Part shown: piece by piece, positions 5,577-10,018 of the stretch
Layout of the letters: each line of letters begins with the position of its first letter
Position numbering within the stretch: position 1 is the stretch's first letter
Virus record (IMG/VR): IMGVR_UViG_3300042923_000193
Location: 1 to 24,200 of that record
Reading direction: 5' to 3' (one strand)
Origin: a virus
Length of the DNA stretch: 24,200 nt
Notes under the pieces: model-generated
The model's input: only the letters and a program-made list of their open reading frames with translations
Told to the model about the DNA's origin: nothing
The model's database searches: none
Made by a program: the position numbers and the translations under genes

Positions 5577-6098
5577 ATGAGTAAAGATAAAAAAGACTTA
5601 TCAGAGATAGAGAATAAGCTTAAGAATTATTTCTTGAAAGATCAGAAAATAAAATCATATAAATTAAAGATTGAAGTTATAAAGAAACAGAAAGCTGAAT
5701 TAGATTTACAAATAAAGAACAATGATATAGTTATTCCAATAGAATCATCTTCACCTAGTTTTGAAGAAAGAGTACAAACTACTCCAACAGGAATGAGCTA
5801 TGCAGAAAGAACTATGCTCAACATAATAGATAAAAAGATAATGGAATCCAGCAACTACCAGGAGGATATATACGCCTTAGAATCTAAAATAAGACGTATA
5901 GAGATTGATTGTGCTGAGATAGGGGAGAATATAAAGACACTGGATGAAGATAGCTTAAAACTTCTCTCAATGAGATATAAGGACAATAAAAAAGATTGGC
6001 AAATAGGACAAGATTTAAGAATGGATCAGAGTACAGTGACTAGAAAGAGAATGAGAATTCTATTAGATATATTTAAATTTGAAAACTGGGTAAATTGA
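5577..6098 (+). CDS. ArpU/RinA-like late transcription regulator
   Basis: This 173-aa protein has a charged helical N-terminal region and ends in a sigma-70 region-4-like helix-turn-helix (about residues 125-165): LSMRYKDNKKDWQIGQDL, then DQSTVTRKRMRIL. This architecture and its place just before the packaging genes match the ArpU/RinA/LtrC-type activators of late genes in Gram-positive phages. It ends 10 bp before three GCATTAAA repeats and a strong extended -10 promoter, which are its likely target. The start is ATG 5577 with GGAGGA upstream. The assignment rests on architecture and context, because the family diverges strongly in sequence. Confidence 0.75.
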   Translation: MSKDKKDLSEIENKLKNYFLKDQKIKSYKLKIEVIKKQKAELDLQIKNNDIVIPIESSSPSFEERVQTTPTGMSYAERTMLNIIDKKIMESSNYQEDIYALESKIRRIEIDCAEIGENIKTLDEDSLKLLSMRYKDNKKDWQIGQDLRMDQSTVTRKRMRILLDIFKFENWVN

Positions 6099-6108
6099 TG
6101 AAAAGTAT

Positions 6109-6141
6109 GCATTAAAATTGCATTAAAAACGCATTAAACCC
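6109..6141 (+). repeat. Three tandem GCATTAAA repeats, likely activator binding site
   Basis: GCATTAAAATT (6109-6119), GCATTAAAAAC (6120-6130) and GCATTAAACCC (6131-6141) follow each other with an exact 11-bp period, so each copy faces the same side of the helix. The third copy covers the weak -35 element (TTAAAC 6134-6139) of the promoter behind it. This is the arrangement expected for an activator that contacts RNA polymerase. The ArpU-like protein encoded just upstream is the natural candidate. Confidence 0.7.
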
Positions 6142-6162
6142 TTGATTTATCTATGTTATAAT
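6134..6162 (+). promoter_or_regulatory. Extended -10 promoter for the leader RNA and late genes
   Basis: A perfect TATAAT (6157-6162) is preceded by TG one base away (TGTTATAAT), giving an extended -10 element. At 17-bp spacing the -35 position reads TTAAAC (6134-6139), a poor match that lies in the third GCATTAAA repeat. Transcription would start near 6169. A strong -10 with a weak -35 under an array of direct repeats indicates activator dependence. The promoter is the only strong one seen between the regulator and the packaging genes. Confidence 0.75.
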
Positions 6163-6311
6163 ATATGTATAGAAAGTAACTTCTTTCTCATATTGTCTCC
6201 CTCTAGGATGAAAGAATAAAAAACTTAGGATGTGGTTACTAAAAATACCTATTGGTTTAACTTAGTGGGGACTTAGTAAACTTAAAAAGTATATTTAGTA
6301 AGAAATTCCTA

Positions 6312-6330
6312 TAGGGGTTAACAGCCCCTA
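6312..6330 (+). other. Hairpin with self-complementary loop, part of the leader RNA
   Basis: TAGGGG, loop TTAACAG, CCCCTA: a perfect 6-bp stem with a 7-base loop. The loop plus its closing G reads GTTAAC, a palindrome, so two copies of the RNA could kiss through this loop. It abuts the tRNA-like element that starts a few bases downstream. Confidence 0.5.
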
Positions 6331-6336
6331 CTATAT

Positions 6337-6396
6337 GGTTATATACTCAACTGGGGAGAAGCCTTAGAGCTGAGAGTTCGAATCTCTCTATAACCA
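6337..6396 (+). ncRNA. Truncated tRNA-like element 1 (60 nt)
   Basis: GGTTATA (6337-6343) pairs perfectly with TATAACC (6389-6395) as a 7-bp acceptor stem. GAGAG, TTCGAAT, CTCTC (6372-6388) is a canonical T-arm. CTC/GAG with GG in the loop (6346-6358) looks like a D-arm, and TA fills positions 8-9. Only 13 bases separate the D- and T-arms instead of about 22. They can form AGC, CTTAGA, GCT, too small for a normal anticodon arm, and no variable loop is left. No CCA is encoded. Outside, CTATA (6331-6335) can pair with TATAG (6402-6406), so the element seems embedded in the larger RNA. It is unlikely to decode codons. Confidence 0.6.
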
Positions 6397-6569
6397 ACTT
6401 TTATAGATTAAATGAAAAAGTTTAATATTGCCTTGGATATTAAAATTAACAAGTGGGATATTCTCCTAAACAATCGCAAGTTTATATGGAGAAATCTCGC
6501 AAACACAAGGATAGCTCATGTACCTAGATGTATAAAGAGTTCCTGCGCTCCTTAAATGGGGTGTTGCAT

Positions 6570-6613
6570 GGAGATTGAGTTTAGTCTGTAAGGTTCAAAT
6601 CCTTAAATCTCCT
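6570..6613 (+). ncRNA. tRNA-like minihelix 2 (acceptor plus T-arm only)
   Basis: GGAGATT (6570-6576) pairs perfectly with AATCTCC (6606-6612), and TAAGG, TTCAAAT, CCTTA (6589-6605) is a perfect T-arm stacked directly on it. Only 12 bases (6577-6588) replace both the D- and anticodon arms; they can form AG, TTTAGT, CT. GGG at 6558-6560 may extend pairing to CCC at 6614-6616. This is a tRNA top-half mimic, not a tRNA. A T-loop of this sequence is also a general RNA tertiary-contact module. Confidence 0.6.
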
Positions 6614-6648
6614 CCCTTTTATTGGACATAGTATTATCCTCCTCTTAG

Positions 6649-6692
6649 CATGAGAAGTAATATTGGGGCAAGAGTGTTGCTTCTCATGTTTT
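6649..6692 (+). terminator. Intrinsic terminator ending the leader RNA
   Basis: CATGAGAAGTAATA (6649-6662) pairs with TGTTGCTTCTCATG (6675-6688) over 14 bp with two G-U pairs, and TTTT follows. The stem is long and the U-run short, so it may be leaky or a structural end of the RNA. Confidence 0.7.
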
Positions 6693-6733
6693 AATAAGAT
6701 ATCATCAATCCTCCATAAGATTTTTATATATAG

Positions 6734-6765
6734 AAGCACTTTAGTTTAGATACTGAGGTGCTTTT
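6734..6765 (+). terminator. Second intrinsic terminator before the packaging genes
   Basis: AAGCACTTTAGT (6734-6745) pairs with ACTGAGGTGCTT (6752-6763) over 12 bp with two G-U pairs and loop TTAGAT. The 3' side runs into TTTTGTTAT. No good promoter is visible between here and the gene at 6797, so the late genes need read-through. Confidence 0.7.
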
Positions 6766-6796
6766 GTTATGTAAAAAGTAAAGGGGAGAAATAAGT

Positions 6797-7045
6797 ATGA
6801 AGTATAGAAAAAAGCCAGTTGTGGTTGAAGCGGTGCAATTTGATGGAACAGATAAAAGTGTTGAATGGATATTGCCTCAACTAATAAGTGGAGAAATAGG
6901 CAGAGCTCTTAATAAATTATATATTAAGACTTTAGAAGGTACTATGACAGCTGAAAAAGGAGACTACGTAATCAAGAGAATTAACGGCGAATTTTATCCA
7001 TGTAAGCCTGATATATTTGAAAAGACTTATGAATTGGTTAATTAG
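6797..7045 (+). CDS. Small phage protein of the [12 protein letters not shown] type (PGDYG-like)
   Basis: This 82-aa protein has the widespread phage layout that begins [15 protein letters not shown] and ends with a GDYVIK...[16 protein letters not shown] block. The family is common in phages and prophages of many bacteria and has no established function. It is beta-rich with a conserved PCKPDIF motif near the C-terminus. The start is ATG 6797 with AAGGGGAG upstream. It is the first gene after the structured leader and its terminators, 170 codons of small proteins ahead of the terminase block. Confidence 0.8.
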
Positions 7046-7077
7046 TTAGGTTATAATATAAAGGGGAGGGATTATAT

Positions 7078-7380
7078 ATGTTAGAAGTAAAAGGTGTATT
7101 AAAAGATTTTATTGAAAATCAATCTTTACAAGTTGAGAAGAATATTAGGATAATGTTGGAGCATGAGGGTGTAGTTGTTGAAAATCCTAAAGATTTAAAG
7201 CCAATATTAGATTCATTAGGATATGAATTTACAAAATATGAAATGCCAGGATTAGGAGTTATTTATAGATTACTAAGAGAAGGTAAAGTAAAATCTGAAT
7301 TTAGTTATAAAACCAATATAGATATCTCTGGAGAAATTACAAAAGGTACAATGGGAATATCAGAAGTAAAGTTTTATTAG
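7078..7380 (+). CDS. Hypothetical protein, 100 aa
   Basis: The frame runs from ATG 7078, after a strong GGGGAGGG, to TAG 7380. The N-terminal half is helical (LKDFIENQSLQVEKNIRIML) and the C-terminal half looks like beta strands ending FKY-like (EVKFY). No membrane segment, cysteine or known motif is visible. A strong terminator begins at the base after its stop, so it closes a short two-gene unit with the preceding gene. Confidence 0.65.
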   Translation: MLEVKGVLKDFIENQSLQVEKNIRIMLEHEGVVVENPKDLKPILDSLGYEFTKYEMPGLGVIYRLLREGKVKSEFSYKTNIDISGEITKGTMGISEVKFY

Positions 7381-7405
7381 GGTGTGATAATATCACATCT
7401 TTTTT
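7381..7405 (+). terminator. Intrinsic terminator
   Basis: GGTGTGAT (7381-7388), loop AAT, ATCACATC (7392-7399), followed by six T (7400-7405): an 8-bp stem with one G-U pair. A canonical terminator that sits inside the late transcription unit, before the terminase genes. Confidence 0.85.
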
Positions 7406-7420
7406 ATTTGGAGGGATAGT

Positions 7421-7588
7421 ATGTTAAAGAAAAAAATGTTATTAGAAGTTTATAGCATTTTAGAGACTGCCTTTTTGGCTATAAGTGCATTTAAATCATA
7501 TAAGGGAGAAATGATAGAAGCTATTTATTGTATGCTACTAGTCATTTTCTTGATTATGAGTAAAAGGGAATACAAAGAGGGGAGATAG
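7421..7588 (+). CDS. Small membrane protein, 55 aa
   Basis: The frame ATG 7421 to TAG 7588 starts after GGAGGGA. The sequence opens with lysines (MLKKKML), has one moderately hydrophobic segment (about residues 10-24) and one clear membrane helix (EAIYCMLLVIFLIM, about 33-46), and ends in a charged tail. It follows a terminator directly, and its last codons supply the GAGGGGAG ribosome site of the next gene. The function is unknown. Confidence 0.6.
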   Translation: MLKKKMLLEVYSILETAFLAISAFKSYKGEMIEAIYCMLLVIFLIMSKREYKEGR

Positions 7589-7844: not shown

Positions 7845-7867
7845 ATTAAAGAATGGAGGTGAGCCTA

Positions 7868-8386
7868 TTGGCTAGACCAAACAAGTGGGATGATCTTAAT
7901 ATAAAAGATAAGCTAGAAAGTATTACTGGTTGGGCTAAACAAGGTTCAACTGATAAAGAAATATGTGAAATGCTTGGTATTAGTACTAAGTTGTTTTACG
8001 AATGGAAGAAAGATAAGAGTGAGTTTCGAGAGGCGATAAAAAAAGGCAAAGAGGTAAGTAATGGGGAACTATTAAATAGTGCTTTTATGCAGTCTACGGG
8101 CTTTTATACTACCGAACAGATACCTGTCAAGGTAAAGGATTATAAAGTCATAGAAGGGCAATTAAGGCAAATAGAGAGGGTTGAGGTTATCGAAGTAGAG
8201 AAGTATGTCCCTCCTAACCCAACAATGAATATATTCATGCTTAAGAATAGATTACCGCAAGACTATAAAGATAAAAGAGAGATTGAAACAACTGGAGAAA
8301 CAACAGTTAATAACAATCTTAAAATAGATGATAGTGTTAAAACAGAAGACATAAAAGATATGATTAAGAAGTTAGAAGATAAATAA
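7868..8386 (+). CDS. terS: Terminase small subunit
   Basis: This protein recognises phage DNA and feeds it to the large terminase subunit. The preferred start is TTG 7868, giving MARPNKWDDL. GGAGGTGA (7855-7862) is then the ribosome site; an in-frame ATG at 7853 lies inside that site. A helix-turn-helix lies at about residues 23-48 (GSTDKEICEMLGISTKLFYEW), typical of small terminases of Gram-positive phages. A short basic central helix follows, and the C-terminus (about 140-172) is a charged, flexible tail ending MIKKLEDK that may contact the large subunit. The length of 172 aa is normal. Identification rests on the HTH pattern plus adjacency to the large subunit. Confidence 0.85.
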   Translation: MARPNKWDDLNIKDKLESITGWAKQGSTDKEICEMLGISTKLFYEWKKDKSEFREAIKKGKEVSNGELLNSAFMQSTGFYTTEQIPVKVKDYKVIEGQLRQIERVEVIEVEKYVPPNPTMNIFMLKNRLPQDYKDKREIETTGETTVNNNLKIDDSVKTEDIKDMIKKLEDK

Positions 8387-8551
8387 TGTATATATGCAGA
8401 TTAATTGAATGTATAAAGTATGTATAAATTTATTAAATATGAATAAATATACGTAAAAATGCTAAAATTATCGGCAAAATACTTTTTTGAGTGAATAAAA
8501 CATGTATTTAATGTCGCTAAACACACATTTATGAACGTGAAAGGAGTGAAC
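8387..8551 (+). other. AT-rich gap between terminase genes, possible packaging or regulatory site
   Basis: This 165-bp gap separates the small and large terminase genes in an otherwise tight operon. It is very AT-rich and contains repeated TGTATA (8387, 8410 and 8421 areas). No ORF with a ribosome site, no terminator and no convincing promoter is visible. A packaging start site is possible because such sites lie in or near small terminase genes, but no defined motif supports it. Confidence 0.3.
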
Positions 8552-10018
8552 ATGGATAAAGAATCAATATTGTTAGAATTAAAAAAAGAACTAGCAAGGA
8601 GAGAATACTCAGAATATTGTATCTATGTTCATAGAGGAAATTGGATATTAGGAAAACATCTTAAATTAGTTTGTGCTGCTATAGAAGATTTAATATATAG
8701 AAAAATGAAACAGAATATATTAATAGTCAGTATGCCACCACAACATGGTAAATCTCAATGTGTAACTGAAACACTTCCTAGCTACTATTTAGGTAAGTTT
8801 CCTAGAAAGAGAGTTATTGAGGTTTCGTATGGTGATGATCTAGCACAAAGGTTTGGTAGAAGAAATAAAGAAAAGATACTGGAATATGGCAAAGAATTAT
8901 TTGATATAGAACTTTCTAAAACTTCTGATACAGATTTTGAAGTTAAAGAACATAAAGGCTCTATGATTTCTAAAGGTATTATGGCAGGTCTTACGGGTAA
9001 TCCAGGGGATTTGATTATAATAGATGACCCTATTAAGAATAGACAAGAAGCAGAATCTGAAACTTATCGTAATAGAATATGGGAAGAATTCTTAAACTCC
9101 ATTTATACTCGTTTGAGTGCAGATGGAGTTATTATTTTGATTATGACAAGGTGGCATGAGGACGATTTAGCAGGAAGATTATTAAGCACTATGCCTAATA
9201 AGGTTAAAGAGATTAATATTCCTTTAGAAGCTGAAGAAAATGATATATTGAATAGAAATGTTGGCGATAGTTTATTTCCTGAGATAGGTAAGGACAATAA
9301 CTGGCTTAAAGAGTTCAAACAGGTTTATACGACTCAAGAAGGTTCGAGATCATGGAATGCGCTTATGCAAGGTAGACCTACTGCACAAGAAGGTAATATG
9401 ATAAAGCGTAAGTGGTGGAAGTATTATGAGGCATTGCCCCAAATGATTCAGATTATTATGTCAGTAGATGCAACGTTTAAGGATGGAGATAATAGTGATT
9501 TCGTGGCTATACAAGTATGGGGAAAACGTGAAGCTGATATGTATCTAATAGATGCAGTTACGGAGCGTATGGACTTTCCTACTACTGTACAGGCTATTAT
9601 ACAAACTAAAAACAAATATCCTAAAATACAACAGATATTGATTGAAGATAAAGCTAATGGCTCAGCGATCATTTCTACACTTAAAAGAAAAATACCAGGA
9701 ATAATTGCAATAAATCCAGATGGGGGTAAAGTGGCTAGAGTAAACGCAGTATCACCATCTATTGAAGCTGGGAATGTATTCTTACCGCAGAATGAACAAT
9801 TCACTTTTGACTTTGTAGATCAATGTAGTAAGTTTCCTAATGGTTCACATGATGACATGGTGGATAGTATGTCACAAGCTTTAAACAGATTTATTTATTT
9901 CTCGGCTAATTTACCTAAACAACAGCCTAAATACAATTTCCCGAGTGAAAGACCGAGTCCAAACACATTTACAGGTGGAAGTTTAGACCGAAGTTATATA
10001 GATATGGATATTTATTAA
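8552..10018 (+). CDS. terL: Terminase large subunit
   Basis: This 488-aa packaging motor has an ATPase that drives DNA into the prohead and a nuclease that cuts the concatemer. Walker A is PPQHGKS (residues 62-68), Walker B is LIIIDDP (154-160), and a coupling region follows with TRWHEDD (199-205). The C-terminal RNase-H-like nuclease has Asp306 (SVDATFKDG), Glu365/Asp366 (IEDKANG) and Asp434/Asp435 (HDDMVD). All key residues are present and the length is normal. The start is ATG 8552 with AAGGAGTGA just upstream; ATG 8531 is in frame but lies before that site. The WHEDD-type sequence resembles terminases of P22-like and related headful phages, though cos-type use cannot be excluded. Confidence 0.95.
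   Translation: MDKESILLELKKELARREYSEYCIYVHRGNWILGKHLKLVCAAIEDLIYRKMKQNILIVSMPPQHGKSQCVTETLPSYYLGKFPRKRVIEVSYGDDLAQRFGRRNKEKILEYGKELFDIELSKTSDTDFEVKEHKGSMISKGIMAGLTGNPGDLIIIDDPIKNRQEAESETYRNRIWEEFLNSIYTRLSADGVIILIMTRWHEDDLAGRLLSTMPNKVKEINIPLEAEENDILNRNVGDSLFPEIGKDNNWLKEFKQVYTTQEGSRSWNALMQGRPTAQEGNMIKRKWWKYYEALPQMIQIIMSVDATFKDGDNSDFVAIQVWGKREADMYLIDAVTERMDFPTTVQAIIQTKNKYPKIQQILIEDKANGSAIISTLKRKIPGIIAINPDGGKVARVNAVSPSIEAGNVFLPQNEQFTFDFVDQCSKFPNGSHDDMVDSMSQALNRFIYFSANLPKQQPKYNFPSERPSPNTFTGGSLDRSYIDMDIY

Follow-up and report, generated by a model that had tools for sequence, protein, structure and literature searches.

A putative late-leader RNA with GC-hairpin and tRNA-mimic modules in Clostridium-type phages

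The late control region and its non-coding RNA

The window (the whole stretch of DNA analysed, a 24,200-nt virus record) was a phage fragment carrying, in this order, the gene for a late transcriptional regulator (phrog_36, 173 aa; 5577-6098, plus strand), the RNA described here, small genes, and the genes for TerS (7853-8386), TerL (8531-10018), the portal and the major head protein. Relatives of the phrog_36 late regulator marked the matching site in Clostridium prophages, and only because of the range of this regulator family was the host inferred to be a Clostridium-like bacterium.

The late promoter, recognised from its sequence at 6109-6162 (plus strand), combined three direct repeats of GCATTAAA (starting at 6109, 6120 and 6131, with a spacing of 11 bp) with a -10 box, TATAAT, at 6157-6162. 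The hexamer TTGATT lay only 9 nt from the -10 box, so it is not a normal -35 box, and the promoter is better read as having an extended -10, TGTTATAAT. The “strong regulated promoter” of an earlier note on this DNA was retained as an activator-type promoter with repeats. Among the window and four related contigs (L082, L083, L084 and L086) the operator repeats differed in sequence (GCATTAAA, GCATAAAA, GGAATTAA and ATGTCC), and their three copies and ~11-bp spacing were kept across phages with different regulators.

With its ends inferred from promoter and terminator, the RNA would extend from 6170 to 6692 (~520 nt, plus strand). The 14-bp terminator stem described in the earlier note was present as a terminator-like stem (6649-6692, stem at 6649-6688, plus strand), to which a second terminator was added at 6736-6765 (plus strand), just ahead of the late genes. 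The stretch 6170-6692, with an activator-type late promoter on one side and two terminators on the other, was confirmed to be non-coding and strongly folded. No supported open reading frame was found between 6099 and 6796, and the sole frame in 6163-6692 (47 aa, 6412-6555) sat within a stretch replaced in relatives, which agreed with the earlier claim that 6163-6692 holds no supported gene. Folding of 6169-6700 gave a minimum free energy of -150.3 kcal/mol (z -5.42), equalled by 0 of 100 shuffles, and the multiple stems claimed in the same note were found at 6649-6688, 6312-6330, 6545-6564 and 6236-6301. The strongest fold among 520-nt segments sampled over 24 kb (z -5.8) began at 6401.

The RNA was divided into the following parts, all on the plus strand: a 5' domain at 6236-6301 with a near-invariant core, CCUAUUGG...AGUGGGGACUUAGUAAAC; a hairpin (UAGGGG/CCCCUA) at 6312-6330; tRNA mimic 1 at 6337-6395, with a 7-bp acceptor stem, a D arm and a T arm with the loop UUCGAAU, and lacking the anticodon arm and an encoded CCA; an exchangeable stretch at 6396-6544, of which five phages carried three unrelated versions; a second hairpin at 6545-6564, replaced in sequence in relatives and still possible there; tRNA mimic 2 at 6570-6612, a minihelix of acceptor stem and T arm; and an invariant unpaired segment at 6629-6643, UAGUAUUAUCCUCC, containing an anti-Shine-Dalgarno-like CCUCC. 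The two tRNA-like minihelices reported previously were real, the first with acceptor, D and T arms and the second with acceptor and T arm. Seven copies of CCUCC were present on the plus strand of the window, three of them within 104 nt of the end of the RNA (6611-6714). Complementarity between the RNA and the phage mRNAs, searched for antisense pairing, never exceeded 12 nt. The 5' core motif was also found behind the late regulator of a Clostridium intestinale prophage (L106).

Beyond the second terminator, two short intergenic patches (7040-7085 and 7368-7434) were 92-98% conserved amid otherwise replaced genes, the first of them containing the promoter- or junction-like sequence GGTTATAATATAAAGGGGAGG.

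Close homologues and the exchangeable stretch

The RNA was present in four IMG/VR contigs, three of which were reached through the regulator (L084/L088, L082/L087 and L083/L085) and one through a DNA pattern (L086). The alignment of the five phages comprised the conserved 5' domain, mimic 1, the exchangeable stretch, mimic 2 and the terminator stem. Between the mimics, the window had the same version as L084, L082 the same as L086, and L083 one of its own. As read from the sequences, a hairpin just before mimic 2 was possible in every version despite the replaced sequence; the stretch itself folded with z values from about 0 to -3 depending on the version, and was not clearly structured in all. 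A short shared stretch marked recombination in the cassette.

The RNA was 85-93% identical between phages while the regulator (53%), TerS (41%), TerL (28-81%) and the portal (27%) diverged, so the RNA did not track the packaging genes. A role as packaging RNA was set aside as unlikely, since the RNA persists next to quite different terminases and portals. In L086 the upstream gene and promoter were different and the RNA was kept.

In the terminator stem, three pairs showed two-sided changes in L083, a covariation score reached by 3 of 500 shuffles. In the 5' domain and mimic 1 the helices were 98% paired and nearly invariant, and consequently gave little evidence of covariation in this alignment; among the five closest phages most mimic stems did not vary at all and were uninformative.

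Searches of annotated phages found neither DNA similarity nor the regulator protein, and a DNA search of 207 Clostridiaceae genomes gave short matches only, taken as chance. Pattern matches other than L106 (L089-L091, L155, cyanobacterial and others) were likewise set aside as chance.

Hairpin and tRNA-mimic units in Clostridium prophages

Relatives of the regulator were found in 56 of the 207 genomes searched in the family of C. intestinale; a class-wide search outside Clostridiales gave weak partial matches only. The DNA directly behind the regulator was read in ~80 loci, and 14 late leaders (L141, L170, L177, L179-L182, L189, L193, L197, L199, L200, L205 and L218) contained a recurrent unit: a GC hairpin, then a few nucleotides mostly ending in U, then a tRNA or a tRNA mimic. 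Both elements of the window fitted this unit, with hairpin, short spacer, acceptor stem and T arm behind a phrog_36 late regulator. ARAGORN named a tRNA in 9 of the 14 leaders (Asn, Lys, Ser, Glu, Trp; one with anticodon UUA), and L141 additionally held a tRNA-Asn. Several units contained intact tRNAs, so ordinary tRNA genes of phages use the site as well. Mimics lacking a normal anticodon arm were present in L170, L177, L181, L189, L193, L200, L205 and L141, in tandem with a tRNA in five of them (L141, L177, L193, L200 and L205). The second unit of L193 (1216-1313, minus strand) was an odd serine-type tRNA with the ARAGORN anticodon UUA, which would read the UAA stop codon.

The comparison drew on five close homologues and about twenty wider units. 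A geometric scan for a 7-bp acceptor stem with an adjoining T arm, applied to 83 late regions, gave matches standing behind a hairpin and none on the reverse strand or in 415 shuffled regions. In L170, L193 and L200 the minihelices, 41 nt long and with a shorter acceptor, were found by eye and by model. A hairpin of at least 6 bp preceded 18 of 20 units vs. 5 of 46 control tRNAs (one of the five being the L141 unit itself), the controls having been drawn from matches of a covariance model, R1, and being if anything enriched for hairpins. The hairpin of a 19th unit (L083) had 5 bp, all GC. U was present at position -1 in 18 of 20 units and in 38 of the 46 control tRNAs.

Model R1, built on the 5' domain and mimic 1, was rejected as unusable for reach and mainly matched host tRNA genes; one of its matches (L141) later proved to be a true unit. 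In an alignment of six hairpin and mimic units, 99% of the cells were paired and 9 of 17 pairs showed two-sided changes (shuffled mean 4.7), with a covariation score of 0.62 vs. 0.23, as high as in 0 of 500 shuffles. These changes kept the hairpin, acceptor and T stems paired. The covariation in homologues that the earlier note had named as a test was accordingly present, both in three pairs of the terminator stem and in the six-unit alignment. Model R2, built from the six units, found the other units. The training set of model R3 was five prophage units and left out the sequence of the window. Over the 24.2 kb its best match was 6545-6616 (30.4 bits, E 1e-5) and its second best 6311-6399 (16.0 bits, E 0.03), ahead of a next best of 9.2 bits; the E-values come from a short calibration. 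The previous description of a large structured RNA with tRNA-like minihelices, perhaps of a new class, was supported by the homologues, by the covariation and by the cross-validated covariance model.

The only Rfam match in the window was tRNA (RF00005) at 6337-6396, with 32.4 bits (gathering score 29), and covered mimic 1 only; ARAGORN found no tRNA and no tmRNA in the RNA. All mimics retained the acceptor stem, the T stem and a T loop matching U(U/G)C(A/G)A; mimic 1 of the window, L177 and L141 also retained a D arm with a G-containing loop. The anticodon arm was absent in all mimics and CCA was encoded in none of them (vs. 46 of 46 control host tRNAs), so decoding is impossible for the mimics as they stand.

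Retention of tRNA parts might reflect decaying tRNA genes without present function. Intact tRNAs (Asn, Ser, Lys, Glu, Trp) at the matching site in other prophages, tRNA genes near terL in relatives and the recombination mark in the cassette are consistent with decay, but the two-sided changes kept the T stem, acceptor and hairpin paired, and the D stem changed from CACT/AGTG in L177 to CATT/AATG in L141 with its pairing kept. A similar short remnant, GCCUUAGAGC in the window and GCUUAAAG in L177, L141 and L205, filled the place of the anticodon arm and suggests that the mimics share an ancestor rather than having decayed repeatedly. Loss of function was therefore disfavoured, as a highly improbable explanation.

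Several further elements were observed at the site behind the late regulator in relatives: a DUF3800-VIII RNA (L190:835-898), a near-threshold abiF RNA (L199:1018-1049, minus strand) and, in L106 and L197, genes resembling DUF4062 proteins. These are possible defence cargo.

The mimics might alternatively act as decoys for tRNA-cutting or tRNA-modifying enzymes of host anti-phage defence, which would bind RNAs devoid of an anticodon loop and could not cut them there. All mimics kept the elbow and acceptor and lacked the anticodon arm, and defence-type cargo stood at the same site in relatives; nevertheless, an RNA that lacks the anticodon arm may not be bound by anticodon nucleases, and no partner gene was identified, which left this role quite unlikely.

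A leader element, GGACAGG..UUCAUUG..CCUCC, occurred 10 times per 1337 nt in unit-bearing leaders (L141, L170, L177, L179-L181, L189, L193, L197, L200 and L205) vs. 34 times per 125435 nt elsewhere. Enrichment of this CCUCC element, the position of the RNA between the late promoter and the late genes with two conserved terminators, and the recurrence of the 5' core in a short leader of C. intestinale that is followed by a terminator would all suit an attenuator or antitermination leader, in which the main task of the RNA is to control read-through into the late genes and the tRNA-like elements are passengers. Such control was considered unlikely as the main role: the conserved promoter-like patch at 7040-7062 could provide the late genes with a promoter of their own, and paired changes kept the mimics.

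In L082/L087 and L083, a third tRNA-like acceptor/T-arm pair (TAGAGTA..TACTCTA) was seen after the terminator stem; its D region resembled that of tRNA-Leu, and an unrelated insert occupied the place of the anticodon arm.

Relation to known RNAs and proposed working

The earlier note had likened the RNA to ROOL and GOLLD, large phage RNAs often found near tRNAs, and its size, phage setting and nearness to tRNAs do resemble theirs (PMC12286853). However, the window RNA was shorter and differently folded, a permissive Rfam scan of 6050-6800 (E up to 10) matched no ROOL, GOLLD or Y-RNA-like family, and 15 related loci contained no ROOL or GOLLD match at E up to 0.5. That assignment was not upheld, and a divergent nanocage RNA of either family is extremely unlikely.

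Among known RNAs, the tRNA-like domain of bacterial Y RNA comes closest in form. In YrlA this domain has acceptor, D and T arms, lacks the anticodon arm and binds PNPase (PMC8394870), and mimic 1 had the same arms and the same absence. In two Clostridium genomes, R2 matched a hairpin and minihelix directly upstream of a Ro60/TROVE gene, with 41 and 39 bits, and R3 also matched such a unit (28.5 bits). A mimic might thus work as a tether or decoy of the Y RNA kind, binding PNPase or another tRNA-binding host protein and redirecting or blocking it during late infection. Against this role, TROVE genes were absent from the window, from four related viral records (which may be fragments) and from ten unit-bearing genomes, and no Y-RNA-like Rfam family matched in the window or related loci. 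A Y RNA-like function was judged improbable. The window RNA differs from YrlA in its tandem modules within a phage late leader, separated by an exchangeable stretch. Y-RNA-like, tRNA-like repeats, none of them matched by Rfam, were also seen at 900-1600 of L296 and L297, upstream of a Ro60/TROVE gene in two Clostridium genomes.

Other known RNAs shared single traits with the window RNA. Phage tRNA genes and arrays occupied the same site behind the same kind of hairpin, with intact tRNAs in sister units, but the mimics lacked the anticodon and encoded CCA. The tRNA-like domain of tmRNA also has no anticodon arm; by contrast, ARAGORN identified no tmRNA, in which such a domain goes with a tag reading frame, here. 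The tRNA-like structures of plant RNA viruses engage host tRNA enzymes by elbow mimicry, whereas the window belonged to an unrelated DNA phage and its mimics were internal to the leader instead of forming the 3' end of a genome. Except, weakly, for tRNA, no described RNA family in Rfam matched the architecture of the unit, and no description of a late leader with hairpin and tRNA mimics was found in the open-access papers searched.

The reading put forward here, tentatively and as slightly less than an even chance, is that the RNA is a late leader of Clostridium-type phages, composed of GC-hairpin and tRNA or mimic modules, which RNase P and RNase Z cut. The promoter of the late regulator would start the RNA just upstream of the packaging genes. 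The mimics keep the acceptor stem, the T arm and in one case the D arm, the parts that tRNA-end enzymes would recognise; RNase P and RNase Z grip the tRNA elbow and read the acceptor and T arm, and RNase Z handles precursors without CCA (PMC4810234). Host RNase P and RNase Z may cut at the mimics, the cuts would divide the leader into pieces and detach these from the late mRNA, and the pieces could remain as stable small RNAs. The intact tRNAs of several units and an exchangeable stretch that was not clearly structured in every version weigh against this reading. Exchange of the middle piece between phages points to interchangeable cargo, as far as the sequences indicate. It is possible, and well short of probable, that these RNAs make up a distinct class, in which anticodon-less mimics derived from phage tRNA genes, each behind a hairpin in the late leader, engage the host tRNA machinery for a non-decoding purpose and hold exchangeable RNA cargo between them.

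A recurrent RNA architecture is hereby added to phage late control regions, where protein-based annotation and ARAGORN had missed it. Behind a common hairpin, tRNA genes and mimics lacking the anticodon trade places at a single site, which offers a natural series from tRNA to other RNA. Given the likeness to the tRNA domain of Y RNA, together with the model match beside a Ro60 gene, a possible link of phage tRNAs to Y RNAs can be put to the test.

Phages with related terminases also carried RNAs. Genes for tRNAs stood upstream of terL in L019, L032, L035 and L042, making this a recurrent place for tRNAs. A type-P5 twister and a type II hammerhead ribozyme were seen at L019:3416-3470 and L012:3014-3079, respectively (both minus strand). 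In L042, ~270 nt of apparently non-coding DNA (824-1090), without an Rfam match, followed a tRNA-Thr gene upstream of terL and may be a further large phage RNA.
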